Source of the DNA: Deuterostichococcus epilithicus
Taxonomy: Eukaryota; Chlorophyta; Trebouxiophyceae; Prasiolales; Stichococcaceae
Direction of reading: 5' to 3'
NCBI GenBank assembly: GCA_033439295.1
Contig: JAVTLE010000004.1
Coordinates: forward strand, 682,012-746,011
Length of the DNA stretch: 64,000 nt
Positions 2,013 through 62,108 of the stretch are shown one piece after another. Every line of letters starts with the position of its first letter. Positions within the stretch are counted from its first letter, which is position 1. The notes beneath the pieces were generated by a model. That model was not told the origin of the DNA and did not search any database. It saw only the letters and a program-made list of their open reading frames with translations. Both the position numbers and the translations under genes were made by a program.

Positions 2013-5000
2013 ATGAAGAAGCCGCAGCAGCAGCTGGCAACTGCCACGCCTCAGACACAGCGCAAAAAGCAACAGAAGCGCAGCGCCGGTGAGGCGGCGG
2101 CGGCGCGGCAGCGGGCGGCGGCAGAGCCGGCGTCATCAGATGACGAGCTCGGCGATGACAACGGCGGTGAGGCGCTGGACAGTGTATCCGAGCGCCAGCC
2201 CACGGCTGCCGCAGCAGCCGAAGACGGCGCTCCTGGAAAGGCGGCTAAGCGGAAGCGCAAGTCGGCTGCCGCCCCGGATGCTACCGACGCCGATGCCGCG
2301 GCACCAAATGCCCTGGCGTCCGCAGGTCTGGAGACGGTGCCGCTGTCTGCGCTGCGCGCAGCACATGCGGCCGGCAACGGCGGCGCGGCGGGTAGCGAGC
2401 CGCCATTTCGGAACAAGGAGAAAGTGTTGATGCTCACCTCACGCGGCATCCCGCCCCGGTGAGCAAGCTGTCGTGTACAGGCATTGGGCAGCAGTGACTG
2501 CCGGATCCATCAGCAGCAGGAAGCACAGCAGCTGGTGGATGTCATGCGTGCTTCGTTCATCGTCTGCACTCTCCAGCTTGAGACGGCACAAGCAGAAGTG
2601 CATGCGTCCAAGCCCTGAGCAAACCTACGCGGCAAGATAACAGTGTGCCGTACAGCCGGCTCCTGATGCTTGATCTGGGGCAGCTGTTGCAATCAAATTG
2701 TGCCACGAAGCCGTGCATTCTCAGTCGTTCCTGATTTCGGACGCTCGTGCTTCCAGGCACCGCCACCTGATGCTGGACCTGGGGCAGCTGCTGCCCAACG
2801 CGAAGCGCGACGCCAAACTGGACACAAAGTCCGACCGCGCCGTCATCAACGAAGCCGCCGAGCTCAAGGTGTAACTCTGATTTCGATTCCTCTGTTTCGT
2901 TTATTTTGTGTCGCATCGGACTGCCGCGCCTGCCGCCGACCCGCCAGCCTGCCTGCTGGCCGCCGCTCACCACTGCCGGTGGTCGAAACGCCGTTTTTCC
3001 GGCCGCTCTGCCGCTCTGATACAGCCCCTGCAGCTGATGCAGTAGCTGCCGACCGAGACTCCAGGCCTCGGGCAGGCAAACAACGCGAGACATGCGCATC
3101 ATGCTGCAGGGCTGCACGTCGGCAATGTTCTTCGAGGCGCGTAAGCGGCAGGACTGCTACCTGTGGCTGGCCAAGGTGCCCGCCGGCCCCACCGCCAAGT
3201 TCCTCATCGTCAACGGTGCGTCATTGCAACAAGCTCAACCGCTCCCTCCCTCCCTGCGAAACCCTCAGCTTCAGGGTTCTGCTGCTCTCCCCACTGCCGA
3301 GTTCCTCATCGTCAGTGGTGTGTCTTGGTCATCGCTCCCCCGCAGACCCTACACTTCACGTTTATCTTGCCCTCCCCACCATGAAAATCGTCGACGACAC
3401 GTCAGGGAAACTTTCTTCCTTCCTTCCTGCCGTCCTCCCGCCCGCAGCGGGTGCAGCCGCAGAAATGTAGCAGTGCGCGCCATTGCTTCTGGTCGGTCCA
3501 CGTGAACGACGGCTCCTCTGTTGCCATGCCCTGCTCGCTTGCCCTCGTCAACATGAACCTTGTCCCGTGCATCGCGCAGTGCACACGATGGCGGAGCTGA
3601 AGTTGAGCGGCAACCACCTCAAGGGGTCCCGTCCCGTGCTCAGCTTCGACCAGGCACGCCCTACCTGCCTTGAGGCCTCCGCTTCCTGCATCTGCCCCAG
3701 GCTGCGCCAGCAGCGCATGCCGCGCAACGGTTTTTGGTGCCTGCCGGGCCAGCCGTCCACACGACCATGCAGCGCACAGAGGTGTTGATCAACCTCTGAC
3801 ACTGTCCTGCCGGGCTCAGAGCAGCAGCCCCTCGTCGCACCATTCAACTGCCACACGTTTTCACAGCACTGCAGGAGTTTTACAGCCGCCGAACTGGCGC
3901 TTACACGCGTGCGGTGCGGGACTGACGCACCACAGCTCCGCACTGAACCGCCGTAATCCCGCGCACAGGAGTTCGACAGCGCGCCGCACTGGCTGGTCCT
4001 CAAAGAGGTGCTGACGCACGTGTTCGCGACGCCCAAGCGGCACCACAAGGCTAAGCCCTTCGTCGACCGGGTGCTGTCCTTTTCCGTTGCCGACGGCCGC
4101 ATCTGGCTACGCAACTACCAGGTAGCTTCTCGAGGAAGTGCTGAGAAACCCGTCCTCCCCACAACGAGGCAGCAGGCATGGTCCGACCGCAGAACCTGCA
4201 GCCCTCTCCGAAGAAGCCCTGTCCGAGGCAGGCGCTTCCCACCTAGCGCAGCTGTGCCCAGCGGAGGAGGAGCCACGGGCAGTCGTCCGAGCGTGTCGAA
4301 CCCTGAGCAGCGTGTCCCAAACCCTGTGGCGCAGGTGTGTCAGGCGGCGGAGAAGCCGCGTGTGGGCGTCGACGCCACCAGCCTGGTGGAGGTCGGCCCC
4401 AGAGCCTGCCTCAACCCCATCCTCATCTTCTCCGGCGCCTTTGGCGGTGCGTCTCTGCTCCGCTGCTGGCAAATTGCTCCCCAGCCAGTTGCCCCGACGT
4501 GCGTTGAAATGACCGGGCTGCTGCGCTCTGGCGACTCCTGGGGGTGCAAAGCCCAACACAAAGCTGAGAGTGGCCTGTCGACCGGGCAGGCGGGAGCAGG
4601 GCATTGTGGTGGATCGTGCTTGGCGGCCCGGCATGTCTCGCCTCTAACTCCATTCCTGCTGAGTCCCTGCAGGCCCGGTGATCTGGGATAGCCGGGCTGT
4701 GTGTCGTGCAGTGACCTGCTTGCATGTCCCTCCGCAATTCTCAACCCTTATGTTTTGTGCCCGGCTGCGCAGGCCCGGTGATCTGGGAGAACCCCGGCTA
4801 CGTGTCGCCTAACGACCTGCGGGCGGCGGAGAAGCGCAAGGCTGCTGGGAAGTACACCGGCAAGGTGCGAATGAGAGGAACCTTGCAGAAGCATAATGGT
4901 AGAGGCACATACACGACTGCTGGATGTGTTCAACTGAGATTCTGACCAAGCTTGAACGAAATCCAACTCCAGCAACCGAAACATGTTTCGTTTCAAACAC

Positions 5001-5207
5001 TTGTGGTGCAGGGTGCTTGATTCAAGGGTTTTGATGCTCCAGATACAGGACAGATGATGCACTGCTGTCAGCAGACTCGAGTGTGAGCATGCTGACTGAG
5101 TCTCTGTGCGCAAATCGCAGGTGGCAAAGCGGCAGGCGCGACGCGTGCATGTGGCGGAGAACCGCATCCCCAGAGGCGAGCTGGACGATGTGTTCCAGGA
5201 TCGATGA
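2013..5207 (+). CDS. BRX1: Ribosome biogenesis protein BRX1 (Brix domain)
   Basis: Nucleolar factor for 60S subunit assembly, with the RNA-binding Brix fold. Exons: 2013-2458, 2757-2868, 3110-3215, 3580-3653, 3969-4121, 4335-4446, 4773-4864 and 5121-5207. The product is 393 aa. A charged Ala/Lys-rich N-terminus (about residues 1-125) precedes the Brix domain. Family landmarks are KEKVLMLTSRGI, the RHLMLDL block, FFEARKRQD, ELKLSGNHLKGSRP, LVEVGPRACLNPI and a C-terminal LDDVFQ. All phases match. Intron 4 uses a GC donor (CAG|GCACGC at 3654). The start at 2013 was chosen because upstream in-frame ATGs (1710, 1743) precede sequence with no family similarity. Introns 3 and 6 contain decayed copies of exon 3's end and of exon 7's beginning. 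Confidence 0.95.
3294..3325 (+). repeat. Relic of the end of BRX1 exon 3
   Basis: A diverged copy of the last ~25 nt of exon 3, including a degenerate copy of its GTGCGT donor (here GTGTGT). It sits about 85 nt downstream inside intron 3. Confidence 0.65.
4671..4711 (+). repeat. Relic of the start of BRX1 exon 7
   Basis: The copy begins with the acceptor AG, followed by the first ~20 nt of exon 7 unchanged (CCCGGTGATCTGGGA), then a decaying match. It lies exactly 100 nt upstream of the real exon 7 acceptor. Confidence 0.8.
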
Positions 5208-12596: not shown

Positions 12597-15500
12597 ATGC
12601 CGCCGATGGCAATGATTCAGCGGTCGACACTGCGGCCGCCGGTTGCCGCACATGCGTCAGAGCACATAGCGGCGCGGCTGAGTGCCGGCAGTGCTTTTCG
12701 CTGCCTGCCCTTGGTGCAGCGAGCGCATCATGGTCCGCAACAACACACAGCCGGCCAGCGCAGGTTGGCACCACCATCCGTGACAACGGTCGTGCTTTTG
12801 ATAGATAACTTCGGAACCCTGGATCACTGCCAGCCATCACTCCGTGCAACCGTGCCCTGCTGCCGGCACGTTGTACGGTGTCTGTTTCAAATGGTACATG
12901 CGGCTTCAAGGGATCAATTTAGTCCCGCGGAGACCGTCTGTGCTGCACGACATTCTGGCACGCCACTCCGCCCTGCCGCGCAGGCGGTTGCGTGCGACAC
13001 TCAGCATGGACGAGTCGGGGCCCAACACGACGCTGGCGACGCTCGACGAGGTGCGCGAAAAGGCTTGCAAACACCGCGCGTTGTGACGCACGCTCCCATC
13101 CTGGACCCCCTTTTGTGTCCCACTTCAGTGTCCCGTGCCCCCATGCCAGACAAGGGCGTGCTAACACCTCTCTGACGCTGCTGTGGCCCGACCAGGAGGA
13201 CATGTTCACAGAGGACGAGCACCTTCTGGAGGAGCTAGCGCCCCTGAAGGAGGCCCTGGAGCGGGCGGTACACCGCAAAAACGAGGCCATCAGCCTCAAG
13301 GAGCAGTTTGAGGATGAGGTGCGATTGGGACTGCTAGGCGTCTTTGAGCGACATGCTCGCAGTCCCGGCTCGTGACCCACAACTGCCTGCTCTCTGCATG
13401 CCGCTGCCGCCGCTTCCACTGCATCTGGAGGCATGGTCCACAGCGCTGTGGCACGGCGGCTCATGGGCGACCGTGACTCCGCAAGCGCCGGGAAATGTGG
13501 TGCCCCAACGGGTTGCACTCGACAGCCGCCCGATATTCTGCCGAGCAGGCGCAGCACGTGGCAGAGGCCGCCATCTCGGCGCGGGAGGCAGCGAAGAAGG
13601 CGCGGCGGCGCGCGGAGGAGGCAGTCACGGAGTCCGAATCGGCGGTGTACAAGCGCGAGCATCTCATCGCGGCGGTCGCGGACCTGCGCCGCGCGATCTC
13701 AGAGGACTCCGTCGCCTCCAGTGCGCGCTGCCTAGCAGCAGGCATCGTTGGGGTTTAGAATACTGAGTGGCGCCGCCCGGCAGCATGCCGCTGCTGAGGG
13801 TCCCCCATGACAGCCTCGCCGTCACACCGTTGCCACGGTGCAGGGATGGGTCTGCGCGGGCGTCACGCGGGCTGATGGCTGCATGGCCGCGGTTCACGCC
13901 GCAGCCGGCACCGGCCAGGACTACAATGTATCGGCTTGCCTCGGTGCTTGTTCAGGCGTGGTAGCCCCGAAGGGCCTTGAACAGGCGCCAGGCACGGGCA
14001 TTGGCGCAAGCGGCAGTGATGGCGACCTGGGAACTGCGGTTGTCCTGCCTCTTATTCTCCATCCCGATCGTGCTTTCCCGCAGGCTTAGAAAGGGCAACG
14101 GGCTCGACCACAGGCGATGACGACCTGGAGGGCCAACTGTGGGAGAAGCAGCAGCAGCTGGAGGAGGCGTCGCTCTTTGCAGACAACCTGCAGGAGAAGG
14201 TGGGTACCTCTGCGCAAGTGTGACCTCGTCTCAGGTCCTGCCAGCCTGCATGGAGTGAGCCAGCTGTGGGAGAAGAAGGAGCGGCAGCTGAAGTAGGCGT
14301 TCTTGCAAGCAGACAACCCACACAAGAGATTGCATTTCCGTACTGATAAGCCCTTGCGCGCATGATGTGCTGGATCGCAGCTGCGGCCGTCCATAGGCAC
14401 ATGAGCTGTCAGGGACAGCTGAGGGGAATGAGCACTAGCCGTGCAGGAATGCCCATCTGTTTTAAACCGGTCCTGCGGGGCGGGGAGCCACAGGCAGCAC
14501 AGCCTGTGCACTGCCGCACAGCCGCCACACGTCTGCAGCTATTTGTGCAGAAACCGCTGGAGGAGGGGAAAAGGCGGCTTGGTCGGCAGGCAGAGGCGCA
14601 GGCGGCTCGCACGAACAGCAGGCGATGGCCAAAGCCGGAGCTCTCAGCTGGCGCCGGCTGCAGCCCTTCAGGCGGGCATTCGCCAGCCAATACAAACGTG
14701 CAACTTCTCATCCTGAACCCTGAGCATGAACCCTTGCCCAAAACAGGTGGGCGCGCTGGAAGAGCGCGCCAGGGCGGCCGAGGCGACCGCCGCTGCCGCG
14801 GAGGAGACAGCGGCGGCGGCGATGCAGCGCGCCGGCGGCGCGGTGCGCGATGAGATGGAGGCGGCGGCGGTGGTGAAGGAGACGCAGCACGCGCTGGCCA
14901 AGGCGCTGCAGGGGCTGCGGGACCTGGGGCCCACTGAGGACCAGGTCGCACAGGAGGCCGCCAGGTTCGTTTAGGGGCTAAACCCTGAAACAACATTTCG
15001 GACACAGACATTGCTGGGACACCCTGGGATACCGCCGAACCTCAGCCCAGGGCGGCCGAGCGAACAGAGTTTAGATTTTTAGGGTATCGAATCTTGACGC
15101 AGCAGGTGGAGCAGGCGCCATGCCTGGAAGCTGCAGAAAGGCTGATCACCCACCAACAGAGGGCCTTTTTCTGACGCGAACGCAGGAAGGCAGAGCGGAT
15201 AGCGGCGCACGTCGAGCAGGCGCTCGACTTGGAGCCGCAGGCGCTCGCGGCGCCGTCGCCGCCCAAGTCCCCCAAGAAGGCCGGCCTGGCGCTGCCGACG
15301 GCGTCGGCTGACGAGGACCTGCTCACGACGCTGCGGCCGCCGCCCGGCGGCGTCATCTCGGCCCCAGCCATATCACCCACGTCGGTGGGGCCCAGCAGCG
15401 GCAGCATGTGTCGCACGAGGCATCCTGTGGTCAGCTGATGTGGCGCGATCGCGCGCCGGCGGCGCAGCCCTGATGAAGATGCACGCCCCTTGCTCGGGGC

Positions 15501-18500
15501 ACCAGGCCTGGGCCATGGGAGCCCTGGCCGGACCATGGCGCCGGCTCGCAATGACAGTGGGCCTGTCTGCTTCTCGGCTGTCAGCGTCTCTGAGGTCGTG
15601 TGCCCTTGATGCGCCGCAGCCAGTCGTGGCCACACTGGCGCAAAAGGGGGAGGATGCTCCTGGATTTGTCCCGGCAAGGCTCATCTTCGAGATGCAGGCT
15701 GGCCTAGGTCACTGAGGCTGTTCTCTTCTGGGCCGCAGGTCGACCTGCTGGCGCAAAAGGGGAAGGATGCGGCACAGAAGGGCAAGGAGTCCACGCCTTC
15801 CATGAAGTCCTTCGATGAGTGGGAGGCGGCGTCGGCAAAGCTGCCCTTTTGGAAAAAGTGCGCCCCCTGGAACGCCGAGCCTGCTCGGCCGTCGGGGCAT
15901 GCTGGACGTGCACTGTTCATGCAGTGGCCGCCTGCCACTGCCAGCAGCATCCACTTGGGAGTCTGCAGCAGCAGTGCCTGCCGGCCTGCTGCCTGTGTGC
16001 GTCTGCTGCCATGTGCCGGCCTGCCGCTGTATGGTCAGGTGCAGCACCGCTGCAAGCGGGCGCCGTGATTACATGCTGGACTCTGCTCTCCCACACCCCC
16101 GCGGCTCGTGACCGCTCGTCCAGAGCATGCCTGAGCGGCATTGCTCGTCGCTGCTGGTTTTGCTCTGTGCTTCCCACCGGAACAATCAACCCCCTACGCC
16201 CTACACCCCACACCAGGCACCAGAAGGCGCTGGCGGCGGGGCTGGTGGTGGCGTGCCTCGCCGGGTACGGCTTCCTGCAGACGCCCTGGGGTTTGCCCGC
16301 AAAGACCTCCATCCTGGCACTGGGCCAGTACCTCGCAAAGGTCAGTCTGACATGAGGACGACATTCCAGACGCGGCGTCAAAGCATTTTGACTGAACGAT
16401 TCACAGCAGCATCCTGGTGTTGTCCTGGGGAATCACCGCTGCCTGAACGGTGCCGAGCGATGGCACTGCCATTCCTCTGCTGCTCGGCTCTGTAATCAGT
16501 CGAGTCTCCGCAGGTTCCCGCGCGCAGACAGGTCGCCGACCGAGGTGCCTGTCAGACGCTGCTGGGCAGGTCGCTGCTCACCCGTGACGCTGAAACGAGT
16601 CCCTCTGTGACACGCCCTTGCTTTCCCGCCCCGCAGCTGCAGCTTATGGCGAAGACGATGCTGGGCAAGATCCCGCTGCCGGAGACGCTGCGCCACGAGG
16701 AGGGCCTGCTGGAGACCATCTGGCTGCTGTTCACCTCCGTGCTGGTGGTGCCCGTCGTGTGCAAGATCCCGGGGGGCAGCCCAGTGCTCGGCTTCCTGGC
16801 CGGCGGCGCGCTCATCGGCCCGCACGCCCTGGGTGCGCCCTCCATCGTGTTTTCGACCCCGCAACCGCAGCCCTGGCAGCGTGAGGTTCCCAGCGGCAGC
16901 CCCGCGCTCGATCAGAAAGCCGAGCCGAGTCTGCTGGGCTGTCACTGCCGTCCATGCACGTGGTGCAGCCAAGCCAAGACCGCCTCCAGGTGCACATCAC
17001 ATTGTTGTCACAGCCATCCAAGCGTGAGCCGCGCTCATCACCGTGCCGGGGCTCCGACTTCGCCTTCTCTGATGCAACCATGCCAAATCAGCATGCGCGA
17101 CTGTGTGTGACGCAGCAGATCCACGGCATGGGTCCGCCACCAACGACTCCCTGAACATCACGCGCGCAGGCATCCTGCGGAGAGTGAAAGGCGTGCGCCG
17201 CCTGGCAGAGCTGGGCGTCGCGTTCCTGCACTGCTCGACGTCACGCCACAGCAGTAACAGCTGATATGACTGTCTGCTGCTTTGTGATCTCGACTCCCTG
17301 CTCCACCAGGCATTGTGCGGGACGTGGAAGGCGTGCGCCACCTGGCGGAGCTCGGCGTCGTGTTCCTGCTGTTCAACATCGGCCTGGAGCTGTCGCTGGA
17401 GCGCCTGCGCTCCATGCAGAAGTTCGTCTTCGGGCTCGGCGGCCTGCAGGCGCGCTCGTTACGCAGCGTTCCCCTGTGCCTGTGCGGCCCCAGCCCCCTT
17501 GCCGCGCAATGTGTGTTGGACCGCACACAGGGAGGGTTGCTGTGCGTCGCCAGTCTCAGGCCAGGTTGCGTCAGTCGAGCCTGTCCGGCACACGAGCCCC
17601 GCAGCGCCGTGCACGTGGCGAAGGTTGCACCGAAGTCTGATGCACGCCTGACGACTGTGATGATGCCGCGCAGGTGCTGGTGTCCACGGCCGCCATTGCG
17701 GCGACGGTGACGGCGCTCGCGGCGGTGCACGGCCCCGGCGCCATCATCCTCGGCGGCGGGCTTGCGCTGTCCTCGACCGCTGTCGCCATGCAGGTGCTGG
17801 CGGACAGGGGGGAGACCGGCTCGCGGCACGGCCGCGCCGCCTTTTCCATCCTGCTGTTCCAGGTGCGCCCTAAACCTAGGCCCTGAAACCAGCACACTAG
17901 ACCCGGCCATGCAGCATGCACACTAGGCAACCGAAACACCAGCCACAGCTTGCACGACTGTGGGCGCGCGCTGTAGACCTCCCGCCTCTGCCGGCGCGGA
18001 GCCACGCCGCCGGCGTGCTGCGGCCGCTGTGAACCAGCGCCGCATGAGTGCCCGTCCCGGCACCGCGCGCAGGACCTGGCGGTGGTCGTGCTGCTGATGC
18101 TCATCCCGCTGCTGGCGCCGCAAGAGGGCGCCGCCGTCGGCTTCGCTACCATCTCGAAGGCCCTCGGGTGCGGTGCTCGTGCTGCCACGCCCGCCTGCCC
18201 CACACTGCAGAGTCTGCATATGGGTGGGTTGCAGCCGCCGGCATAGCCAGAGACTTCGCCACAAGCCTCCCAGCGCCTGTCATCGGCAGGCTGGCTGCTG
18301 CGTCTTACAGGGACGCCTTGCATATCGGGGCGTCGCCGCTTCCACTGGCACAGGCGCTGGGCGCGGTGCGCAGCCGGGACAGTGTGCAGCGCCCCACAAA
18401 TCCTTCCCAACCCCTGCTCACCCTCTGCGCCGCAGGCTGGCGGGCCTGAAGGCAATCTGCTGCATCGTGGGCATCATCGCCGGCGGCCGGCTGGTGGTGC

Positions 18501-27856: not shown

Positions 27857-28123
27857 GGGTTTACAGGCGGTTGACAGGCATCAGGGTCACAAGTGCAGGG
27901 GTCTGATCATGGCCCCTGCAGCGTCCCAGGCGTGCACGCCGCCAGCGTGTGCTGGCCGCGGCGGTCAGGCGCCTGCTGGACAGGGAGGCGCCCCGCTGCG
28001 GCGACGCAGCGGTCCAGGGCGGTTGGCCATTCGAGCTGCGCTGTAGATGCCCTCCGCAGCCTCGTGCCTTGCTTTGCTGTGCCTCGTAACTTGACGCTTA
28101 TTCCTTGATACCCTTTCTTTGAC

Positions 28124-46305: not shown

Positions 46306-49300
46306 ATGACCGACGAAACACCCAGCACGAGCGGTCAGGCCGGCGAAGCACAGGTACCTGCGGGCGAGCATTGCCTCTGCTGAGCCCTGTGCTCGTCAAA
46401 AGCATGTTTCTCACAACACCAGATGCGATCTGTGGCAGCTGCATTGCATACGTGCGAATTCCTGTGCTGTGCGCACCCAATTTGCCAAGGCGCGACTAGC
46501 CGACACTGCGTCGCTGCCGAGCTTAGGGAGTGAACCAGTGGTCACAGGTGGTGACGCCTTGGGACGTGGCGGGCGGCACTGACGGCAAGATCAACTATGG
46601 CAAGCTCATAGCAGACGTGCGCTCCCCTTGCCGCTGTGAAGCTCACTGCCATGCTGTGACGGCCGCCTGTCCACGGGATGACTACATCTCATATCGATGC
46701 TATACTGATCTCTCAGACCCACCTTCTGACCCTGCTGCGTGTCTGAAGATTTTGTTGCCGCCCGCAGTTTGGCGTCTCGGGCATTGACGACGCGCTCATA
46801 GCGAGGTGCGGCTGTTGCATTGCCGCGCACCGCGCTGCCGCCGTCACAGCCTGCCATACGGCGCCTGCAGGGCTATGCACATGTTCGGCCTTGATCCGTA
46901 TCGCCTCTGGCAGCACTTGCCGTCGCTGCTGCTGACGGCATGGCGGCGGCTGCCCGGGCGATGCAGGGTGGAGCGGGCGACTGGCGTGAAGGCGCACCCC
47001 TTTTTGCGGCGGGGCATCTTCTTCGCGCACCGGGAGCTGGAGGAGATTCTGGACGCGCACGAAAAGGGGAAGCCGTTTTACCTGTACACTGGTCGGGTGC
47101 GGCGCTTTGACTGCTGCACCTGTGCCGCAACCATCGAGTGCGACAGGAATGTGCTTCTAGAAGGGGTGTGTGGGGCGTGTGGCAGCTTCATCGCTCGCAG
47201 GTGGTGCAGCCACTGCTGCGTGCTGCGTCTGCGCTACACGTGCCTGGAGACGGCGCCTTCGCTGCTGTGGCTGTGCTGCTAATCTATACAACATTGTATC
47301 AGCAGAAAGGGCGGGGCGTGGTGGAACTCACTATCATTAGCTGTGCAACAACCGCCGTGTGCTGCGTCTGCCGGGACCTGGCGACCCGGCACCTCTGCCG
47401 CTGTGCGCTGTGCAGTGGTAGCCGTATGCAACATCTGCCGCCAAGGGATGCGGCAACACTGCGGCGTGCTGCGACCGCAGACTGCTCAGCTGAGGCTAGG
47501 ATCGCTGAGGTGCAGCCTGCTGCAGCTGCACTGTCGGGCAGAACTGCAGTCAGACAATCAGCACCCTGAAGCGGCCAAGCTGGCGGGCGTGGCACCTAGG
47601 GTTCCTAACAGTGCTGAAGGTCCGCCAGCGGGCGACGCTCATGCTGAGCCCCGCAGGATCTGTGGTTGGAAGCGCGGCACCTGGGCCGCAACCCTTGGCC
47701 CCCCGTCCTGCAGACGCGCCTGCTGCGGAGACACAAGCGCTCCGTTTCAGTCGCAACCGTCAACCTTGAAGCGCTAGAACGCCGGCGGAGTCCATTCGTG
47801 CAGCGATGTGATGGCTGCTTATGTGGCAGCGCAGGGGTCGTGGCCAGAGGCACTGCATCTGAGGCACCTGTCGTCCATCCCATCCCACCACATCATTTCG
47901 TCCTTGGGGCCCAGCAGGCTTCACCCCGAGCCTGCGGCTGCCGCAGGGGCCATGGCTGGAGGCGCTGCAGTCGGGCCACCTGGTGCCCTCCGTGTTTACA
48001 AAGAGACTGCAAGAACAAGCGAGATTTGCCGTTGCATCACCTGGCTGTACGCCTGCTTGCAGGGGCCGTCGTCAGAGGCGCTGCACCTGGGGCACCTGGT
48101 GCCCTTCGTGTTCACGAAGTGGCTGCAGGACGCATTCAAGGTGCCGCTCGTCATTCAGCTCACCGACGACGAGAAGTCGCTCTGGAGGCGAGAACTCTGC
48201 ACTCAACTATTCTCGGACCACCCAATGACATCAGCCCCCGCACCCGAGGCGCCTGCTGTATTTGAAAGCTTTCGAAAGCACTGCAGTTGGCAAGCGACAG
48301 ACCGCACGCTATGTGTTTTGTGCACACGCTATGTGCACAAAACACATAGCGTGTGCTCCTTCAGCCTTGCTATTGATATACAATGACCAGGTTGCAGACG
48401 TCTTGCCACGCGGCTCCCGTGAAGAAAGCAATCAACCCTGCAGGGGTCTGGACATCACAGAGGCACGGCGGTTGGCGCGGGAAAACGCAAAGGACATCAT
48501 CGCCTGCGGCTTCGACGTGCAGCGTACCTTCATCTTCAGCGACTTCGACTATGTGGGCGGCGAGTTCTACCGCAACATCGTGTCGATCCAGCGGTGCACC
48601 TTCTCTTGCACTTTGCACTGTCTGTGCACTTTCTGTCCACTTTCGCTGCCATCATCATGCTGAGCCACCGATGGTCATGCGCATCCGCCCTGCTCCTCCT
48701 TCGCGGGCTGTGCCCACAACATCCTGTTGGTGCAGCGACGTAGTGATGCTCGCGTCCACAATTGCACTGAGTGCTGTGCACTGACTGTCCACAGACTCCC
48801 TCTTGTACAGAAACTGCTGCCAGGGTGGCGCCGCCCGAGTGGCGCTTGGCAACGCTGGCTGGCGTGCCAGCCTGCCTGCAGCTTGCACGTGCAGACGGCC
48901 GCAAGGACTGGACTGGCACAGAGACACGACCTGGCGGCCTGGTTGCACTTCCGCTGAAGCCTCTGATGGCCCGCCGCGTCCGCAGGTGCACGACGATGAA
49001 CCAGGTGCGGGGTATTTTCGGCCTGACGCCGGAGGACAACATCGGCAAGATCGCCTTCCCGGCAGTGCAGGTGCGGCAGGGCTCCTGACTGGAGTCGTCG
49101 TTATACGTTGGCGGATTTTGCGGCAGAAAAGTCGGCAGCGGAGCCTTCACCGTTGCAGGCTGCCGTGCTGCGCTCCAGCTGGCGGGCTGCAAGCCGGCGG
49201 CCTTGTCACCGCACCTGGCAGCCCTGTCGGCGGCAGACTGGGCTGAATGGTGACCTGCAACGGCTCTCGCAAGCTTGAATTTATTTGCCGGTCGCAGGCA

Positions 49301-51199
49301 GCGCCCAGCTTCCCGACCAGCTTCCCGCACATGTTTGGCAAGCGGACAGACATCCGGTGTCTTATACCCTGCGCCATTGATCAGGACCCTTACTTCCGCA
49401 TGACCAGGTGAGCACAAACAGCAAAACGCCGCCGATTCTGGCATTCGTATGATCTGTTCCAATTCTTCAGTCTACATTTCCCACATGTGCACTGCAGCCT
49501 GTGCCAGCGGGTCGTTCGGAGCACCTCTCACACAGCCCGGCACAATATGCGTGTGCACATCGCAGGGACGTGGCGCCGCGAATAGGTTTCCTGAAGCCGG
49601 CACTCATCGAGTCGCGCTTCTTCCCAGCCCTGCAGGCGTGTCTCACTGATCGTTGCAGCAGCATGCTGTGCCGTGGGGCACCCCTGGCCGCTTGCATTTT
49701 GCAGCCTGGCGTAGTGACAGAAGTCCGACTAAAGACACACGCTCGCTTGCAGCAGCGGCAAGACAAGCTGGCACGGGGCGTTTGTGGCGGGGAGGTGTCA
49801 TGTCTGACCCACCGCCACCGACCCTTTGATGCAGGGTGACAGCGGCAAGATGTCAGCGAGCGTGCCGACGTCCTCCATCTTCGTCAGCGACAGCCCCAGG
49901 GACATCGCGTCCAAGGTCAACAAGCACGCCTTTTCCGGCGGCGGCCTGACGAAAGAGGAGCACCAGGCTAAGGGTGCGTCATTGATGCGTCGCATGGTCT
50001 GCAGCAAGGGGTGGCTTCACTGACGGCCAGTCGGAATGGCGCCGCCCATGGTCGGGTTTGACAGGTCACGCCTCCTCTGGCCAAGACAGGGGAGAAATAG
50101 GCTACAAACGCAGCCGCTTCTCTGTCGATGGTACTCACTGTGCAATCGAATTTGAATTGTCATAAACCCTGAACGTCCCTGTGACGCTTGAAAAGCCAGC
50201 CTGGAGGTGGACCTGCCGTGGGAGTGCCTCATTCGGGTGCCGAGAACCGCCCGCACATTCGCGTAACCTTATATATACAACCCAACATTTTCGAATGCGC
50301 AGGCGCCGACCTGAAGGTGGATGTGCCGAGCACCTGAATTATTTGGCAAGGCTAGAGGCTACACACGCAGCCCCTGCGGTCGAGATCCGTGAGGAATGTC
50401 GACACTGATGCATGCTTGCAGGCGCCAACCTGGAGGTGGATGTGCCGTGGAAGTATCTCAACTTCTTCCTGGAGGACGATGCCAAGCTGGCGGCCATTGG
50501 GCGGGAGTACGCTGCCGGCCGCATGTTCACCGGCGACGTCAAAAAGGAGCTCATCCAGGTGGGTTATGGGTGGTGATCCAGGGTCAAACTTTTCACTTTC
50601 ATCTCTGGCCGCTGCACGGAGTGTCATTTGGAGGGCGCTCACTGAGGTCAGCCCGGCCCACCGGCCTCAGCAGAGGCCTGCTGTCGTACGAGTCCCGCAT
50701 CTCCGGGGCCGTGCATCGGCATTCGATTCATGCGTTCCTGAGGGCCGCCCCTCCTCGAAAACCGATAATGCTGGTACTGCAAACACAGCCAAAACTCAAT
50801 CCAAGATACCCTTTGAAGGCAAATGCCTGCAACTGTGAGGAGACCACATCGAAGTCTCCAAGTCAATGCTGATGTGAACGCCGGCCCCTGCTGCTGCAAC
50901 GCATAAGTACTGGTGCATTTCAGGACACGTCAATCTGCCAACTGCATGAGACTTGGGAAACGTCAGGGAGTCAGTGGTAACCCTAGGGCATTCGCGCTCG
51001 GGTGCAGGGAAGGGGTCGCTGCCACATGTGCACGCTGATGGCGCAGCAATAGTGCTGGCAGTGACCCTGATGTCACGTGCCTTTGCCGCAGGTCGTGACA
51101 GACATCGTGCAGCGGCATCAGGCGGCGCGGGCGCGCGTGACGGACGACGTGGTGGATGCCTTCATGGCCGTGCGGCCAATGCCCAACCTGTTTGGATGA
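46306..51199 (+). CDS. WARS: Tryptophanyl-tRNA synthetase, eukaryotic cytosolic type
   Basis: Class I synthetase charging tRNA-Trp. Exons: 46306-46353, 46548-46616, 46768-46805, 46967-47096, 48063-48187, 48444-48593, 48986-49070, 49298-49407, 49566-49635, 49835-49973, 50422-50558 and 51092-51199; 402 aa, the usual plant length, all phases consistent. The start [10 protein letters not shown] is short and shows no transit peptide. Landmarks: [19 protein letters not shown]; the HIGH-type motif in [48 protein letters not shown]; the second signature GKMSAS; and KHAFSGGG. The residue after KMSAS is Val, where plant and animal enzymes usually have Asp. Introns 5 and 9 have GC donors (48188 and 49636). 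Introns before exons 5 and 11 each hold two exon relics. Confidence 0.96.
47831..47870 (+). repeat. First relic of TrpRS exon 5
   Basis: GCAG plus ~36 nt of the exon start. Translation gives [12 protein letters not shown], so the HLGH motif reads HLRH. Confidence 0.85.
47943..48025 (+). repeat. Second relic of TrpRS exon 5
   Basis: GCAG plus ~78 nt, open in frame: [20 protein letters not shown] against [20 protein letters not shown]. The first His of the catalytic motif is lost. Confidence 0.92.
48306..48352. repeat. Perfect 21-bp inverted repeat with 5-nt loop
   Basis: The arm ACGCTATGTGTTTTGTGCAC plus one A is followed by CGCTA and then the exact reverse complement. It lies in TrpRS intron 5 and could form a strong hairpin in RNA. 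Confidence 0.92.
50193..50236 (+). repeat. First relic of TrpRS exon 11
   Basis: Copy of the exon 11 start containing CTGGAGGTGG, CCTGCCGTGG and a degraded continuation. Confidence 0.8.
50302..50345 (+). repeat. Second relic of TrpRS exon 11
   Basis: GCAGGCGCCGACCTGAAGG continues to GGATGTGCCG and then a TGA. The real exon starts 120 nt further on with almost the same words. Confidence 0.85.
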
Positions 51200-52767: not shown

Positions 52768-52805
52768 AGCGCTTTTGTTTGCACTTTACACCAGCCGGCG
52801 GCCTT

Positions 52806-52860
52806 CCCGGGTCTCCACGGTTACTTAGCTTTTATTCCCGCGTCTCCACGGTTTTACACT
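52806..52860 (+). repeat. Two partial copies of the tRNA-Ala 3' end
   Basis: GGTCTCCACGGTT (about 52810) and CCCGCGTCTCCACGG (about 52838) copy the last ~12 nt of the tRNA and its flank. The second also repeats the TTTTACACT that follows the gene. Confidence 0.7.
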
Positions 52861-53559
52861 GCTTTTTACCTTTTTGAGTGCAAATTCTCGGTTTCGAGCC
52901 GTTGTTGCTCCTACAGCAGTGTTTCGGCGACCAAATTTGCTGGAGCGGGGACATTCCTAAATCAACCCTGAGTGGTGTCTGCGCATGTTGCTTAGTCCTG
53001 GCAGGACTGTCCTGCAGAGGCTAGTTTGCGGTGGACGTTCGGTCCTGCTTCTTGCACTGCCTACGACTCTTGCATCTGGACACAAGCATAGTTTCAGCAG
53101 CAAAGCAGTGTATATGGAGTCACAGTAGGCGTGCTGCCGGAGCACGGAGATGATGTAATGTGCTACCTGCCCGCGCTGCCCAGTTACAGCCTCTTTCTGT
53201 CAGCTCGACCCTGCTTCCATTCCGCTGCTTTCGTTGATTGTGCATGCCTGGCCGACCGGGCTTGAGTGCATGCAAGCCTCCCGTGTCGCTGGCTCGCCGC
53301 CGCCGCACCCGCCGCCTTGCATGCTCACGCCCCCTCATTGCGTGATCAAGATGGCAGGTGCACCAATTGCAGTTTACAGCGGGCCCATCAGGCCGCTCGT
53401 GGAACATTGTGGCCACTGCGTATGCGTCGGGCGACCTGCTTTAGCTTCTAATAGGCCGTGTCCGGAACCTGCAGGCGTGCGTCCGATTGACTCAGCCGAC
53501 GGGCATCGACCATTGTCGTCACATGATCCGCGCACTCGGCTAGTGAGTTGTAGTCCTAG
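52861..53559. promoter_or_regulatory. Region between tRNA-Ala and LeuRS
   Basis: Presumed LeuRS promoter and 5' UTR. No other feature was seen. Confidence 0.4.
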
Positions 53560-56500
53560 ATGTGCAGCAAGGGTCTCGTGCCGAGCGTGGTGTCGCCACC
53601 CAGCATGCTGCAGCGGCTGCGCCCTGCGCTTGGGCATGCAAGGCTCAGCAGCGCATGGAGGTTCGACTCGTCCTGCCTGCTGCCGCGGGGCGTGGCGTCA
53701 GTGAGGCCAGCGGAAGCCACAAGCAGTCGCCTGATCAGTCGGTGCCGGCTGATGCGCCTGCGAGCTGTCAGCAGTGCCGCCGCCCCGGCGGCGCAGGCGT
53801 CGCCGACGGCGACGGAGGCCCGACAGCCGGCAGACGTGGGCGCCGCTGGCGAGGCCAGCACCAGCGGCAGGTCGACGGCGTATCCGTACCCGGAGATAGA
53901 GGCAAAGTGGCAGCGGTGGGCGCACACTGATCCCTGACAGAATGGACAGCACGCATGCCGCTACAGCACTGCACTGCAGCGCAGCGCAGCACAGTCAGTG
54001 TTGCCTTGTCCATCGATCATGTGCACTGGGCATCTTGAGTGGGGCATTTGGCTATTGTTCAGTCATTGGCTGGTGATCGTCCTGCATGCCCGCACTAGGT
54101 ATTGGGCGGAAAACAAGACCTTCAGGACGCCAGACTTCAAGGACCTCGACACTTCAAAGCCCAAGTTTTATGCCCTGGACATGTTTCCCTACCCAAGGTG
54201 CGGTGCAGTGCCTGTTTGCATTGCGGAAGTCCCCTCCTAGGCTGCACCGCCATGAAGCAGTTGCAACATCATTGACGACGGTGCAGCCTCCGATGATACT
54301 GACGGTGAGCCTGCCACCCCCCCGCAGCGGAGCCGGTCTTCATGTAGGGCACCCGGAAGGGTACACAGCAACAGGTGCGAGCTGTCGCAGTGTGCTGCAA
54401 TCCTCGAGCCTTCTCCGGACTGTCCCAGGATCGTGCCGCGCATGCCCTGCATGTAGCGAGTGCGTGCTCTGCTGCAGCGTCCGCCATGCCGCCCTCTGAC
54501 AGATGCCCGCCCCTGTGCATCGCCTCCCAGACATCATCGCGCGGCTGAAGCGGCACCAGGGCTACAACGTCCTGCACCCCATCGGCTTCGATGCCTTCGG
54601 CCTGCCGGCGGAGCAGTATGCCATCCAGACGGGGACACACCCGCGGGAGACGACAAAGCGGAACTGCGACCGCTTCCGGGAGCAGCTGCAGTCGCTGGGG
54701 TTCTCGTACGACTGGGACCGGGAGATCTCCACTACTGACCCCGGCTACTACAAGTGAGAATGGTCTTGAGTGGGTTGAAGCATGTCCTGCAATCGGAGAC
54801 TGTTCTGCGCCGGCATCATGCGAGCGGCTGGTGCGATGCGCGGCGCGTGCTGGCGGCGTCAGCGGTCCAGCGGCAGGAAACTTGGGGCCCGTGCTGACCT
54901 GCCGCCCCGGCCTGTGGCCGCTGTACAGGTGGACGCAATGGATTTTCCTGCAGCTGTTCAAGAAGGGTCTAGCGTACCAGGCGGAGGTGCCCGTCAACTG
55001 GTGCCCGGCGCTCGGGACCGTGCTCGCCAACGAGGAGGTCATCGGTGCGACTCGTCATTCCAGAGTCTCCAGGATATGACTTGGCCGTAAAGCAGCTCGC
55101 TCCAGACTGTGGCAGCTCCCGGCCTGGGGAGCCTCATGGTCCGTGTGATTCCTGCAAAGCATGGCTACTGCAACTTCCCCTGCAGTGCCCGCTCCTTGCA
55201 GTTTGCTGTCGCTGTCCTGCTGCCAAGTCAACCTTGGAGTCTGCCTGGCAGCCGCTGCAGGTCGCCATGACCCCTGCGCATGCTGAAACAGTCCCAGCAC
55301 CTGACCGAGCGCAAGTTCACTGCTTTCTGCCCTGACCGAGCGCAAGTTCACTGCTTTCTGCTTCACCGGTTCTCCTCCCGCTGGTGCAGACGGCAGATCA
55401 GATCGGTCTGCGTGTCCTGGCGATAGTCTCGACACCTGTGCACATGCTCACCTCACGGTGCCGTGCCTACAACAAACCTCAATAACGCTTCAAAATTTGC
55501 AGACGGCAAATCGGAGCGCGGAGACCACCCGGTGGTGCGAATGCCGCTGCGGCAGTGGATGCTGGCCATCACGCGCTATGCGGACCGGCTGCTGACGGAT
55601 CTGGACACCCTGGAGTGGGACGCCGGCATCAAGGCGCTGCAGCGCGCCTGGATCGGCCGGTCGGAGGTGAGCAAAGTGATGCGCTGTGCTCAGTATTCCA
55701 AAAAAGGATACAGAAGCCGGCTGGACGGAGAGTGCAATGCGCTGGCGGCGCCGTACTGCAGCGCGCCTGGTAGGGCAGCGTTATCGGAGATGAGCGATCC
55801 TGACTCATTCCTAAGGCTGAGCGGCTCACTGTGAAAAGTGGAAGCCAGCATTGCGGCGCTGCAGCACGCCTGCTTTAGGCGTTTGGAGGTGTGTTGACCA
55901 ATCGTCCTCCTCACGGTTGAAGGCGTCAGCATGCAGCTGGGAGACACGCGGGAGATGTGGGGGCTGCCTGTGGGACGCTGGCGCCAGGGCACTGCAGCAT
56001 GGCTCAACTGCGGGATCAGATGTGCGGTGGCGCTGCCTTTGGAGGGCTGTGCCCAGGGCTGGGGGCACCACGGCGGCACTGTTGAAGCCGCGGCGGTGTT
56101 GGCAGCATGAGGGCCCCAATGACTGGGAAACTGGGAGCGCCAGCGGCGCGCTCCTTACGGCGGAGACTCTCTCCTGCCATCACAGCATGGTCCTGTGCCC
56201 GTCCCTTCTGCCGCACCGCCCTGCCAGCTGTGATTTACAGCTGCGCACCTTCGTCTCTGCCGCAGGGCGCGGGCATCAGGTTCCCGCTGCAGGGTGGCCC
56301 CGGCAGCAGCCTGCCGCCAGACGCGCAGCTGGAGGTGTACACCACGCGCCCCGACACGGTGCGCTTTGTGCTCGAGGGACCAAACAACACTCTCTGGTTG
56401 GAGGCTTCTCCGACTGCTGTGTGAACCTACCTGCTGCGTGAACCGCGATGGGCAGCAATGCCACGCGCTGGGCGCATGTGGGCGGGCTTGTCGCAGGCGT

Positions 56501-59500
56501 GCCGCCACCGCAGCATGGCAGCGACCGGCTGCCGTGCGGGCTGCACAGGCAACCGCGCGGTCGTGCGCCGAGCGCGCTTTGTGCAGCAGCCTTCTCTACT
56601 CAAGCCGGCGTGCTTCAGGGGCGTCCCTCTTGTCAGGGCAGCACACTGGCCCTCCAGTTCAACGCTTGCGGCAACCATTGCAAGCTGTGCGATCCGGCTG
56701 CAGATCTTTGGGGCGACGTACATGGTAGTGGCGCCGGAGCACCAGCTACTGGGTTCGCTGGCGACCGACGGCCAGCGGGCGGAGGTCGAGGCCTATGCAG
56801 CGGCAGCCGGCGCAAAGTCCGACCTGGAGCGGACGGATCTCGCCAAGGGCAAGTCCGGCGTGGCCACAGGTGCGAGTTTGCATAGCTGCGCCGCATCTAC
56901 TATCTCTGTCATTCGTAATATCCAGGCCGGCGGCGCAACTATCAGACAGCATTGACACAGCTATCTTATCAGCGGCAAATCTGGTTCAGCCACAGGTTGC
57001 GTTTTGCTGTTGACCATGGCGGACAAATGATTTGGGGGAACACTACTTCCTTCCTGCATATAATCGTGAAGTAGCTGCACGCCCTGCTTGTCGCTGAACC
57101 GGCACTGAGCAAGGCTTGCACAGGGAGCCCCCCTGGCTGCGGCCAGGCAGGGGGGGCTGCTAAGGGCCAGCAGCGCCTGCTGCCATGGCGCATATCAAGT
57201 GTATCCACCCTGCAGTGCCTACACACTCGCGGGCGGGCAGCCACGTGAGCCAGGCTGTACTGGTTGTCAAGACAGATTGCTCCAAGTCGGAGCCTGCCTT
57301 GGGAACATGGCGGAGACTTCTTTATTGGCCATGCCACAGGCATCTGCGCGGTCAAGCCCCCAACCCGCGAGGTGATGCTAGTGTATGACGTCTGTTGCAG
57401 CCAAGACTAAGAGAAGGCATGATGCTGTGCTCAGGCAGCTTTGCGGTCAACCCGGCGACAGGCGAGGCGATGCCGGTGTGGGTGGCCGACTATGTGCTGG
57501 GCGGCTACGGCAGCGGCGCCATCATGGCGGTGCCAGGCCACGACTCGCGGGACTTCGAGTTTGCGCAGACCTTCGGGCTGTCGATCCGCCGTGTGGTGGC
57601 GGCGGCCGCGGAGGCGGCAGCGGGCGCCGACAGCAGCGGCGGCGAGTCGCCGGCGGCAGCAAACGAAGGGCTGCCCTTCACAGGTGCAGCACGCATCTTC
57701 TCTGGCCAATGATGCCGTCGCTTTATCGTGAGATGGACAGTGCGGGTGTCCTGAAATTTGCGCTGCCAATGGCAAGCTTGTGGCTCAACTGAGACGGACA
57801 GTTCAGGTGTTACAATATTGCTGTTTGTCGTGGTGGCAACTCTCTTTACGCCAGACGTCGGCCACTCGCAGCCAGTCAGACACCAAGACACAGTGAAAAT
57901 CTCACCAGCTTCTCGACTTGCCTGGAGTCGCCCTCGTCGTCTGATAACGGCTGCATTGCCCACCTGGCTGGCAGCTCCCACAGCTTGAGCAATGCGATGT
58001 TTCGTGACTCTTGGCGCTGCCCTGCAAAGTCGCCCAGGTGCAACCTTCTTGGTTCTGACAGTCTCCTTGTACCCGCACAGGGCACGGCACGGTGGTCAGC
58101 TCGTCCAACGCCGATGCCGGGCTGACTCTCGACGGCCTGGCAACAGCAGACGCGGCGGCAGAGGTCATCCGGTGGCTGGAGGCGGGCGGCGCCGGCGAGC
58201 GGCAGGTCAACTTCAAGCTGCGCGACTGGCTATTCGCGCGGCAGCGCTACTGGGGCGAGCCCTTCCCCATCGTCTTTCCAGAGGGCTCCGAGGTGTGTTT
58301 CGGATACCCGGATACCTGGGTGCCGTTCATATTGTCACATGATAAAATGTGCAAGCTGTGGCTGGGACTCTGTTGGCAGGCTTGCAGCCCAGCAGTGCAG
58401 CGTCCAGACGGTCCAGGTGGCGATGCTGGGGGCTTGTCGCTGGTGCCGGCTGCAGCCTACATTTCCTCGCAAGCCGACGGTGATGCATACTTCATCCACA
58501 TGACACCAGCGGCAGGCTGTCCTACAGCAGTGTGACAAAGTCCCTCATGTGTGATGTTGATAAAGGTGAGCATCAATGTCATATTGTAAGGTCTGATGCC
58601 ACCCAACACGGACAGCTTTCGGCCGCGCGGCACGCCTCAGCTGCCGGACTGTTTTCAACGAAGGCACCGCCGGCTGCATTTATGGTCCTATGCAGGAGGC
58701 GGCAGCATAGCCGGAGGGACAGCCTGCCGCTGGTGCTGCCGGCAACGATGACTTCCAGCCGCGCTCAAAGCAAGCTGCTGGACTTGCGTACTCACAACGG
58801 ATTCAAAATCACCTTCATCCATGATCCAATCTGCAGGACGCGGTGGCGGTGCCGGAGGACAGCCTGCCGCTGGTGCTGCCCGACACCGACAACTTCCGGC
58901 CGCGCGGCACGCCAGAGTCGCCGCTGTCCGTGATCGACGAGTGGGTCAACACCACCGACCCTGTGGGCGGCGGCCCCGCGCGGCGGGAGACCAGCACCAT
59001 GCCCCAGGTGCAGCGCCTGCAGCCTCCTCAGCTGGAGACCATCCGTTTGGGTTTGAAAATGAGGAGGGTCGTGCAGGCTCCTTTCCCAGTTCTGCCTGTG
59101 TGCAGCAGCCGTCAGGGGATGTTGGCCGCCTGTGCCGTCCCTGCCGCATCCCGCAGCCCGCGACTGGCTGCTCCCCCTGAACCTGCGCCTCCCGCCACCT
59201 GTGAATGAGTGCGCCCAGCAAGCATGAGCCCCACTTTGCCATCGACGACAGCGATGCTGATAGACTGGCCTGTCGATTTCTGGCGCAGCATTTACAACTG
59301 TCAATGATTCATTCATAAAGTCAACTCATCCCCACCCGCAGTGGGCAGGCAGCTGCTGGTACTATCTGCGCTTCATCGACCCCAAGAACGCACAAGCTCT
59401 GGTGGACCCGGCCGCGGAAAAGTACTGGATGCCGGTGGACCTGTACGTGGGCGGTGCCGAGCATGCGGTGCTGCACCTGCTGTACGCCCGCTTCTGGCAC

Positions 59501-62108
59501 AAGGTGTGGCGGGAGAGTCGCTGCTGAGGATGGTCGTGCATGCTGGTGTGCGCGCAGCCCGGCTCCGCCCTGGCATTGCGCGGCTCCGGCCCTGGGGAGC
59601 CACTGCTCGTGCTGCCTGTGGGGAGGGCCACTCGGGTGGGCAAGGTGCAAGGGCTGAAAAGGTGCGGCAGTCGTCATGAAGGGGATCAGGAAGGTCGGGT
59701 TCTGCAGCTGTGCTCGCTCGGCGCTGCCGTCTCCGCGGCGTGCCGCAGCCGCTGCGCGCACAGCCCGGCTGAAGGGCCGCCGCCGTTCTCCACAGACGCC
59801 CCTGCACCGCCGGCTGGACCTGCAGCCATCCATCTTCCATCTGACTGCAGCGCTCGCAAGCTGCAAGGCTTCCGCAGGGTTTGCAGTTGTGAGATGCATC
59901 GAATACCCGCAGGTGCTGTACGACATCGGGGCGGCCTCAGGGCCGGAGCCCTTCCAGCGCCTGGTCAGCCAGGGCATGATCCTGGGGGAAACGGAGTACA
60001 GCTTGTGGCAGGACGAGGCGGGCGCTTTTGTTGAGCCCGACGCCCCCGGCGCCATCCCTGTCAGGTGGGCTGCCTGGCCGGTGCAAGCTCTCGGCACTTC
60101 GCAATGCATTGCAAACACAATCTCCTGGGGGAAGAGTGTAGACTGTGGCAGGACGAGGCGGGCGGCATAGTCGAGCCTGATGGCGCCATCCGCGCAACCC
60201 CAAAATTCTGCCCGACAGTCTTTTTGCCAGACTTCCTGACAGTCTTTTTTATGAGCCATTTCTGAGCCTCGCTGCGAAGGAATATGCTCGCGTGCCGCTG
60301 CAGAGTGGACCCGGCGAACATCGAGAAGGTGGGCGACGCCTTCTGCCTCAAGGGGCAGCCGGCGGCGAAGGTGACGGCGCGGGCGCACAAGATGTCCAAG
60401 TCCCGCGGCAACGTGGTCAACCCGGACGAGGTGGTGGCCCGCTTCGGCGCGGACAGCCTGCGGCTGTACGAGATGTTCATGGGTCCGCTGCGCGACACCA
60501 AGGTGTGTGGCCAGGGATCACTCACTCCAATTCAGTCCTGCACTCTTCCGATGGCGGCAATGTGGCAGGCAGTCGGATCAGCCGATGGCCTGCGGCTGCG
60601 CCAGATGTTCGTGGGGCCGCTGTGCAATCACGTCTGGTCGTGCATGTTCGAGCGTCAATTGGGATTGTTCAGGGTTTGGCGCCGACAGCCTGCGGCTGTA
60701 TGAAATGTTTCACGAGGGACATGTATCGCACTGGCGTGAGCTGTTTCTCCTGGTGCTCTGCACTGCAGTCTCGGCTGTCCATTAACAGCAACTGGTTCTA
60801 ACATTTGAACCAGCTGTAGGCGGCAGTGCTGCTGGTGAAAGACGGTGGCCCCTCCAGCGCCATGCTCGAAACCATGCTGCCCCTAGCGCGGCAGGAGTGA
60901 AACACCAACGGGATGGAGGGAAAATCTGAACTACCATCTAAACACAACAAAAATATCCTGGCGCATTCGAGCCCGCATGCTGGGCGGCAGGCGATCCTTG
61001 CATCCTCAACATAGCAACGTCCCGCATTCAGCAACGCAGGCATGGACGCGCCCGACTCGAGATCCCAACAGCGCGGCGGGCGTGCACACCGCTTCCTGCA
61101 GCCGAATGTGCACTGCCTGCACACAAGTCCCGCTGCTCTCCGCGAGGCTTTGCTCGTTGAGCGCCGCGCAGGTGTGGAGCACCAATGGGGTGGAGGGCGT
61201 GCACCGCTTCCTGGCGCGGGCGTGGCGGCTGTTTGAGGGCGGCCTCTCCGACGAGGCGCCTGACCGGGAGCAGCTGCGCCTGCTGCACTCCACCATCAAG
61301 CGGGTGAGACACATACTCAGCAGTCTCTTATGTCAGCCGCTGCTCGTGTGCCACCGTTCACGGGGATGTGCATCGGCGCTGGAGGGCCTCTTGGAGCCCG
61401 ACTTTGTGCTCGCCGCGGCAGAAGCGCTGGGCACTGCGCAGCAGCTCGCACTAGGCAGGCAGCAGGCCGTCAGCGGTGCTGATGTGACCGGCGCCAAGCG
61501 CTCGCCCTGCCATGCCAGGGGAGCTGTGCAAGCCCAACATAGCCCGACGCTCAGGAAAGTCTGTGCCCCCGGTGTGGCCCTTCAATCCTTCATTCACTGC
61601 TCCCTCACTCTTCAAGGGAGTCGGAGATGAATGAAACACCAGTCGTCTCGGAGCACCCTCACAGCACGAGCTGCGGTCTGCATGATGCACGTCAAGAGCG
61701 GCTCGAAACATGTGTCGGAGCCCTTAAACCTCAAGTATCAGCACCCCCTGGACGTGCTCAGGTGACGGAGGAGACGGAGGCGATGCAGATCCAGCACCCT
61801 CAAAGCCCTATTCGAGAATTCGGCACCACTGTCCTGCAAGCAGGTGGCGGAGGAGACGGAGGCGATGCACCCTCAACGCCCTCAAACCCCTGTCCGAGTA
61901 TCCAGCACCACTGCCGTGCAAGCAGGTGACGGAGGAGACGGAGGCGATGCGCTTCAACACCGGCATCTCCGCGATGATGGAGTTCGTCAACGGCGCCACC
62001 AAGTGGTCCGCGCCGCGCCCTGCCGCCGGCCTGGCGCCCTTCGTGCTGCTGCTGTCGCCATACGCGCCGCACATCGCGGAGGAGCTGTGGCAGCGGCTGG
62101 GCGCCGCT

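Follow-up and report, generated by a model that had tools for sequence, protein, structure and literature searches.

Decayed copies of exon edges and their splice junctions in the introns of the green alga Deuterostichococcus epilithicus

Transposons or diffuse insertions are the usual explanation for the growth of introns. In several species, introns are reported to have been gained by tandem genomic duplication, known as the AGGT model, in which an extra head-to-tail copy is tolerated through splicing (PMC3443670, PMC2891723, PMC4974935), and Introners are reported in connection with a mass change of the intron content in eukaryotic genomes (PMC9860276). In the present analysis, a stretch of 64,000 nucleotides of the genome of Deuterostichococcus epilithicus (bases 682012-746011 of one contig; assembly of 46.8 Mb in 21 contigs, GC content 62%), called the window below, was examined along with samples from elsewhere in the same genome. 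Many introns of this alga carry decayed copies of the adjoining exon edge, which are termed relics here. Such fossil duplications of splice junctions are a real feature of the genome and extend beyond the window.

The relics share some properties with each of four known systems. As in AGGT intron gain, a short head-to-tail duplication is tolerated since splicing removes the extra copy; there, however, an exon is interrupted by a new intron that equals one unit, whereas here an existing junction appears to be duplicated, the intron only growing. The copying of exon sequence into the adjoining intron is also found in tandem exon duplication and mutually exclusive exons (PMC9013439), but here mostly the exon edges are involved, and these are decayed and frameshifted. 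A mass change of intron content is common to the relics and, reportedly, to the Introners, but the relics are copied from the adjacent exon and, on comparison with sampled introns of other genes, do not form a dispersed family. Minisatellite-like arrays are similar in their head-to-tail units, ladder spacing and additional intergenic occurrence, the difference being that here two to three copies, mostly old, recur at many unrelated sites and have passed the filter of splicing. Among the matches listed, drawn from a limited open-access literature, none described relics of this kind, spanning junctions and pervasive in an algal genome; intron gain already offers examples of the mutation type and of its tolerance through splicing, while the junction-spanning form at such a density, together with an apparent size limit, was not encountered among these matches.

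Five genes in the window, all on the forward strand, were rebuilt by hand as open multi-exon chains comprising 69 exons and 64 introns (median intron length 302 nt). These are a BRX1-type gene of 8 exons with GT/GC-AG junctions (2013..5207; Pfam Brix), an antiporter gene of 22 exons (13006..23171; Pfam Na_H_Exchanger and TrkA_N), which is putatively of the KEA type after its label in an earlier reading of the sequence (the first-pass annotation), a coding chain of 10 exons with FKBP and MsrA domains and its 5' end left out (26518..29878; Pfam FKBP_C and PMSR), a TrpRS gene of 12 exons (46306..51199; Pfam tRNA-synt_1b and protein matches to green algae) and a LeuRS gene of 17 exons (53605..62616; Pfam leucyl-tRNA synthetase editing domain and anticodon domain). 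GC-AG introns account for 6 of the 64, with GC donors at 3654, 17450, 19253, 20718, 48188 and 49636. Ungapped direct repeats at lags of 30-400 nt were collected in a repeat scan with simple sequence masked, the low-complexity masking removing 1.4% of the intron bases and 3.5% of the exon bases. In an exon-vs-intron test, the exons on either side of each intron were compared by alignment with the intron body itself and with 200 dinucleotide-shuffled versions of it. The set of gapped alignments comprises 20 relics, as five of the 26 ungapped seeds had no overlapping gapped alignment and one was merged.

A total of 45 direct repeats at lags of 30-400 nt were identified in the window, compared with 2 inverted repeats and with 0-1 per window in ten local shuffles. 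At p<1e-3, exons matched their own introns in 12/128 comparisons, in 12 different introns of the 64, compared with 1/128 for the same introns reverse-complemented and 3/622 for sampled introns of other genes, and hence no Introner-like sharing across genes was found in this sample; at p<1e-2, the respective counts were 18/128, 6/128 and 17/622. The excess of direct over inverted 9-mers lies mainly below a lag of ~250 and peaks at lags of 80-160, where the direct/inverted ratio is 5-7 (1.0-1.4 beyond 300), and the far-lag bands of the window gave no match at a score of at least 18 and 0.25 per band when wider bands were used. Chance or low complexity might be invoked for a GC-rich sequence in which GCAG is frequent, but the shuffled, inverted, far-lag and other-gene controls are near zero in the window; the copies, being 58-82% identical to the exon in gapped alignments and each carrying its own indels, are too diverged for a falsely duplicated locus, and an origin of the relics in chance, low complexity or assembly error is scarcely credible.

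The presence of exon-edge copies in their own introns is thus confirmed in the rebuilt chains of the BRX1, KEA, MsrA, TrpRS and LeuRS genes, for which it had been claimed in the first-pass annotation, and the claim stands against other-gene and shuffled controls with low complexity masked. The five genes contain 26 exon-intron repeat segments, close to the count of at least 22 given there, in 18/64 introns and touching 19/69 exons; the number of relic-bearing introns becomes 20/64 if two further introns from the exon-vs-intron test are added. The description of the introns as generally built from such copies is too broad for these proportions.

The position of a relic follows from the side of the exon on which it lies. 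Relics in upstream introns match the 5' part of the exon in 19/19 cases in the window and 24/24 in other loci (43/43), and those in downstream introns match the 3' part in 7/7 and 14/16 cases, respectively (21/23), in agreement with the earlier description of upstream copies with an acceptor and exon start and downstream copies with the exon end; the two downstream exceptions have long lags (286 and 310) and a mid-exon position. Such an arrangement is expected because a head-to-tail duplication across a junction, with the outer junction still in use, leaves the exon start upstream and the exon end downstream, and it fits duplication units that straddle splice junctions and measure mostly ~80-150 nt. 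In young cases the match takes in the entire unit, both its intron and its exon part, as at 9178-9336 of the outside locus L017 (unit 133 nt, 92%) and at 61759-61950 of the window (unit 82 nt, 85%); the older cases presumably had the same tandem form. The intron flank of the acceptor-side relics is more similar to that of the real junction than mismatched flanks are (rank p<0.05 in 13/43 individually, Mann-Whitney 1.2e-4 jointly), compared with 1/23 on the donor side, where the lag limit of the test excluded no pair. On the acceptor side, the copies are not confined to exon sequence as those of the AGGT model would be. The local tandem process implied by the earlier term tandem exon duplication is upheld, but the visible copied unit is a junction segment of intron and exon and not the exon. 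The introns might instead be new, each of them a copy of exon sequence that arose when coding DNA was tandemly duplicated at an AGGT site; the kind of mutation would be the same, and it is described in other organisms (PMC3443670, PMC2891723). Reasoned from that model, however, the downstream exon's start should directly follow the donor and the upstream exon's end directly precede the acceptor, with no older intron sequence, whereas the acceptor-side relics include the copied acceptor and, to some extent, the flanking intron, and the probability of such an origin is considered negligible.

Where an exon has more than one relic, the lag of the second is 1.8-2.1 times that of the first in 10/17 cases (null mean 2.8, P 1e-4). 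Along with this spacing in multiples of the unit, the same orientation and the adjacency of the copies (adjacency being inferred for the older cases) and their presence outside genes are as in minisatellite-like arrays; the signal outside genes, where intergenic means all sequence that the gene finder did not assign to genes, consists of 12 pairs plus an excess of 8-mer matches at short lags, and is weaker than in the exon-intron pairs. Lags below 80 nt are absent from the exon-intron pairs (0/70) and make up 13/32 of the intron-intron and intergenic pairs (Fisher 4e-8), a contrast that stays after opportunity weighting (P 3e-4). We infer from this lower limit a selection for a complete splice signal in the retained copy.

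The relics of the window differ from their exons by 25.3, 26.6 and 28.5% at codon positions 1, 2 and 3 in the gapped alignments, and the ungapped seeds of the window and the other loci by 18.2, 18.1 and 23.5%. The slight third-position excess of the seeds is expected because the exon itself drifts there, and the third-position-like drift mentioned in the first-pass annotation is weak at most. The stops and indels mentioned with it were recovered: 20/20 gapped alignments contain a frameshifting length change, although some gaps may be alignment noise, and 5/20 contain an in-frame stop. Judged from these sequence comparisons, the relics appear to decay neutrally. The near-even codon-position differences and the frameshifts, therefore, do not support the view that the relics form a reservoir of decoy or alternative exons retained for a role in regulation, such as mutually exclusive or poison exons, as had also been suggested; in addition, most relics are only a partial exon. 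The relics do adjoin their own exon, and the copied acceptor AG is kept in 17/18 relics of the window compared with 0.5-0.7 in neutral simulation, which would hint at function, but its retention in the other loci (14/24) is at the neutral level and differs from that in the window (p 0.012). Such regulatory exons are regarded as very improbable, and selection on the relic acceptors, suggested by the window, is not borne out elsewhere. Repeat-induced mutation was considered as the reason for the scarcity of young copies and rejected, there being no C-to-T excess among the relic substitutions per base (C>T 0.094, G>A 0.081, A>G 0.179 and T>C 0.202).

The sample from outside the window consists of nineteen 10-kb stretches with 223 predicted introns. 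Gene models in these stretches are automatic, the predictor having been trained on the five hand-built genes alone, since self-training shrank the gene set, and low-scoring predicted genes were set aside in the counts. Relics were found in 10/19 stretches and in none of the other nine, with 40 segments in 27/223 introns. Local duplication that lengthens introns is, as had been surmised, not peculiar to the window; its extension to almost every long gene exceeds the sample. The near repeats comprise 41 exon-intron, 13 intron-intron, 10 exon-exon, 6 intergenic and 3 exon-intergenic pairs, and 9 further ones lie in or beside low-scoring predictions. Far-lag matches were observed in two of the loci, L002 (1.6 per band vs 9 near) and L007 (1.0 per band vs 2 near). 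Exonic bases with an intronic copy at least 80% identical within 400 nt amount to 5.2% in the window and 1.4% in the other loci; a published survey by a different method gives such homologs, counted within the gene, for 0.08% of the exonic bases in the fly, 0.06% in the worm and about 2% in human with its longer introns (PMC9013439). The relic-bearing introns of the window have a median length of 462 nt (n=18), compared with 248 nt for the others (n=46, p 7e-6), which supports growth by duplication but does not prove it, as longer introns also hold more room for relics. A twentieth stretch, L005 (G000:C3:900001-910000), was excluded as satellite-like; it has a GC content of 72% and repeats at many lags, with 25 near repeats vs 29 per far band, and is also predicted as long coding exons. 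In the predicted exons of the window and the loci, exon-exon 8-mer identity has a peak at lags of 120-150 (364 per million, compared with 91-122 beyond 300).

Exon-intron pairs outnumber intron-intron pairs by about 3 to 1, both in the window (26:8) and in the other loci (41:13), and the window and loci together hold 70 exon-intron, 20 intron-intron and 12 intergenic pairs; only 3/26 window segments score at least 35. Constant-rate neutral simulations gave ratios of 0.2-1.2, with 41-58% of the pairs scoring at least 35, and constant-rate neutral duplication was rejected as it misfits both the ratio and the score distribution. When duplication was made to stop 0.2-0.3 substitutions per site ago, the ratios were 1.2-14 with 0-20% high scores, and a stop 0.1 substitutions per site ago gave 0.6-0.7 and 28-35%. 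The observed ratio and scores are close to those of duplications simulated with an age of about 0.2-0.5 substitutions per site. A past wave would explain the pair ratio and the few high scores without any targeting of exons, and the simulations suggest that such a wave of duplication took place and is largely over. Alternatively, the duplication mechanism might prefer exons or splice junctions, for instance through transcription, R-loops or GC-rich exon DNA, as would be in line with a ratio that exceeds the constant-rate range in both samples and with a short-lag 8-mer excess that is larger in exon-intron than in intron-intron or intergenic pairs, in which it is also present. If the duplications are old, however, intron-intron pairs decay on both sides and ratios of 1.2-14 arise untargeted, and repeats do occur within introns and between genes; a preference of this kind is considered unlikely.

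The following mechanism is proposed. Short stretches of DNA, mostly of ~80-150 nt at junctions, would have been duplicated head to tail at many sites in the genome, slippage and fill-in repair of staggered breaks being candidate causes at the DNA level. A gene in which such a unit spanned a splice junction would remain functional if splicing kept to the outer copy, which is the proximal one for a donor and the distal one for an acceptor; the inner junction copy and its exon fragment would turn into intron, which would gain one unit, and inner copies would sometimes multiply into a ladder and then decay without constraint. Units inside coding exons would mostly be purged by selection, as would units too short for a complete splice signal, so that the junctions would act as a sieve, and most of the surviving events would be old, the wave being largely past. 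Duplication of junction-straddling units, with the outer junction used and the inner one decaying, is in our judgement a probable route of intron growth. The fuller account, in which a genome-wide wave of short tandem duplications passed through a junction sieve (units of at least ~80 nt with a complete splice signal), junction doubling was a main route of intron growth and fossils remain in roughly 1/8 to 1/4 of the sampled introns, may equally well hold or fail.

Several observations weigh against this account. The wave simulations are simple, their substitution, indel and duplication rates being assumed and the density unfitted, and the best-fitting ones yield 0.04-0.30 pairs per intron, compared with 0.41 in the window and 0.18 elsewhere, so that a higher rate is required. 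A symmetric process predicts no bias between the two sides of the exon, but acceptor-side relics exceed donor-side relics by 43 to 23 (binomial p 0.019); 16/43 acceptor-side relics rank in the lower half for similarity of the intron flank, and the donor-side flanks are without similarity (p 0.38). The retention of the acceptor AG in the window, described above, belongs here as well. The gene predictor, on which the models outside the window depend, was exact on 58/69 exons of its own training genes. Finally, no exon-exon repeat pair occurs within the five hand-built genes, but the 10 such pairs in predicted genes elsewhere are more than a strong purging of coding duplications predicts; the predictor may have taken relics for exons in these cases, or the coding sequence may contain repeats of its own. 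On balance, the interpretation given in the first-pass annotation is partly supported.

The individual relics of the window were all located by the repeat scan, except for two in the KEA gene, and lie on the forward strand unless stated otherwise. Apart from these two and the second relic of TrpRS exon 11, the relics marked below with the exon-vs-intron test have gapped alignments as well. In the BRX1 gene, the hand-built exons beside relics are 2757-2868, 3110-3215, 4335-4446 and 4773-4864. The acceptor and start of exon 2 recur at 2645..2712 (lag ~103; also in the exon-vs-intron test and gapped alignment), the end of exon 3 with its donor on the downstream side at 3272..3327 (lag ~101; gapped alignment), the acceptor and start of exon 6 at 4244..4326, abutting the aligned real copy (lag 83; gapped alignment), and those of exon 7, with an in-frame stop, at 4669..4723 (lag 100; exon-vs-intron test).

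The KEA gene has relics comprising the acceptor and exon for exon 7 (15610..15731, lag about 113-119), exon 14 (18912..19065, lag ~147) and exon 19 (21684..21837, lag 180), all three with gapped alignments, and for exon 10 (17148..17303, lag 140-147; exon-vs-intron test). On the downstream side, exon 20 is copied with its donor at 22454..22547 (exon-vs-intron test), exon 4 nearly whole at 14249..14327 (exon-vs-intron test, p 5e-6) and the end of exon 14 at 19318..19378 (exon-vs-intron test, p 5e-4), the last two being absent from the ungapped list.

The last MsrA exon has a first relic with acceptor at 29607..29711 (lag 110; exon-vs-intron test) and a second at 29532..29558 (lag 216, ~2 x 110). 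The FKBP-type isomerase and MsrA domains (26518-29878) lie in a single continuous coding chain, which may encode a fusion protein. On the reverse strand, a predicted exon at 36194-36327 has relics at 36352..36427 (lag 115) and 36490-36543 (lag 238); the copies claimed for a p24 gene were thus found, but the p24 label is unconfirmed by Pfam on two exon pieces.

In the TrpRS gene, first relics with acceptor are present for exon 5 at 47933..48053 (lag ~116; exon-vs-intron test) and exon 11 at 50293..50385 (lag ~118; gapped alignment), with second relics at 47831..47879 (lag 228) and 50195..50231 (lag 229; exon-vs-intron test), respectively. A near-perfect short inverted repeat was spotted by eye in a TrpRS intron at ~48310-48355. 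The best matches of the TrpRS protein are green-algal and 76-80% identical (among them Chlorella, Micractinium, Monoraphidium and Edaphochlamys), and no entry identical to it is among the 120 matches listed, so that the proteins of this genome are apparently absent from the database. Judged by such best protein matches, the window belongs to a green-algal nuclear genome.

The LeuRS gene has acceptor-side relics of exon 9 (57328..57430, lag 95) and of the start of exon 15 (60885..60920, lag 277), both with acceptor and gapped alignment, and two relics of exon 11 (58593..58813, lags 277 and 140; exon-vs-intron test). The end of exon 6 is copied with its donor at 55840..55891 (lag 222; gapped alignment) and again at 55970-55998 (lag 355), that of exon 13 on the downstream side at 60068..60201 and that of exon 14 twice at 60554..60709 (lags 132 and 232), the latter two exons also in the exon-vs-intron test. 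The youngest-looking junction array of the window, with 2.3 copies of the 82-nt unit (61759..61950; whole-unit match), is made up of two relics of the acceptor and start of exon 16 plus the real junction at 61926. Between the two synthetase genes, a tRNA-Ala gene (52676-52749) has short, worn repeats of its 3' end behind it (52801-52875), the matching pairs being 52737/52837 (lag 100) and 52804/52835 (lag 31), as if the same kind of duplication had hit the edge of this gene.

Each pair includes a conserved exon, which serves as a slowly drifting ruler, so that the mutations that lengthen introns can be counted singly in this alga. The rate of duplication, its size limit and the choice of splice site after duplication become measurable from the sequence alone, and the relics amount to a natural experiment that shows which junction the spliceosome must use when two identical ones lie side by side.

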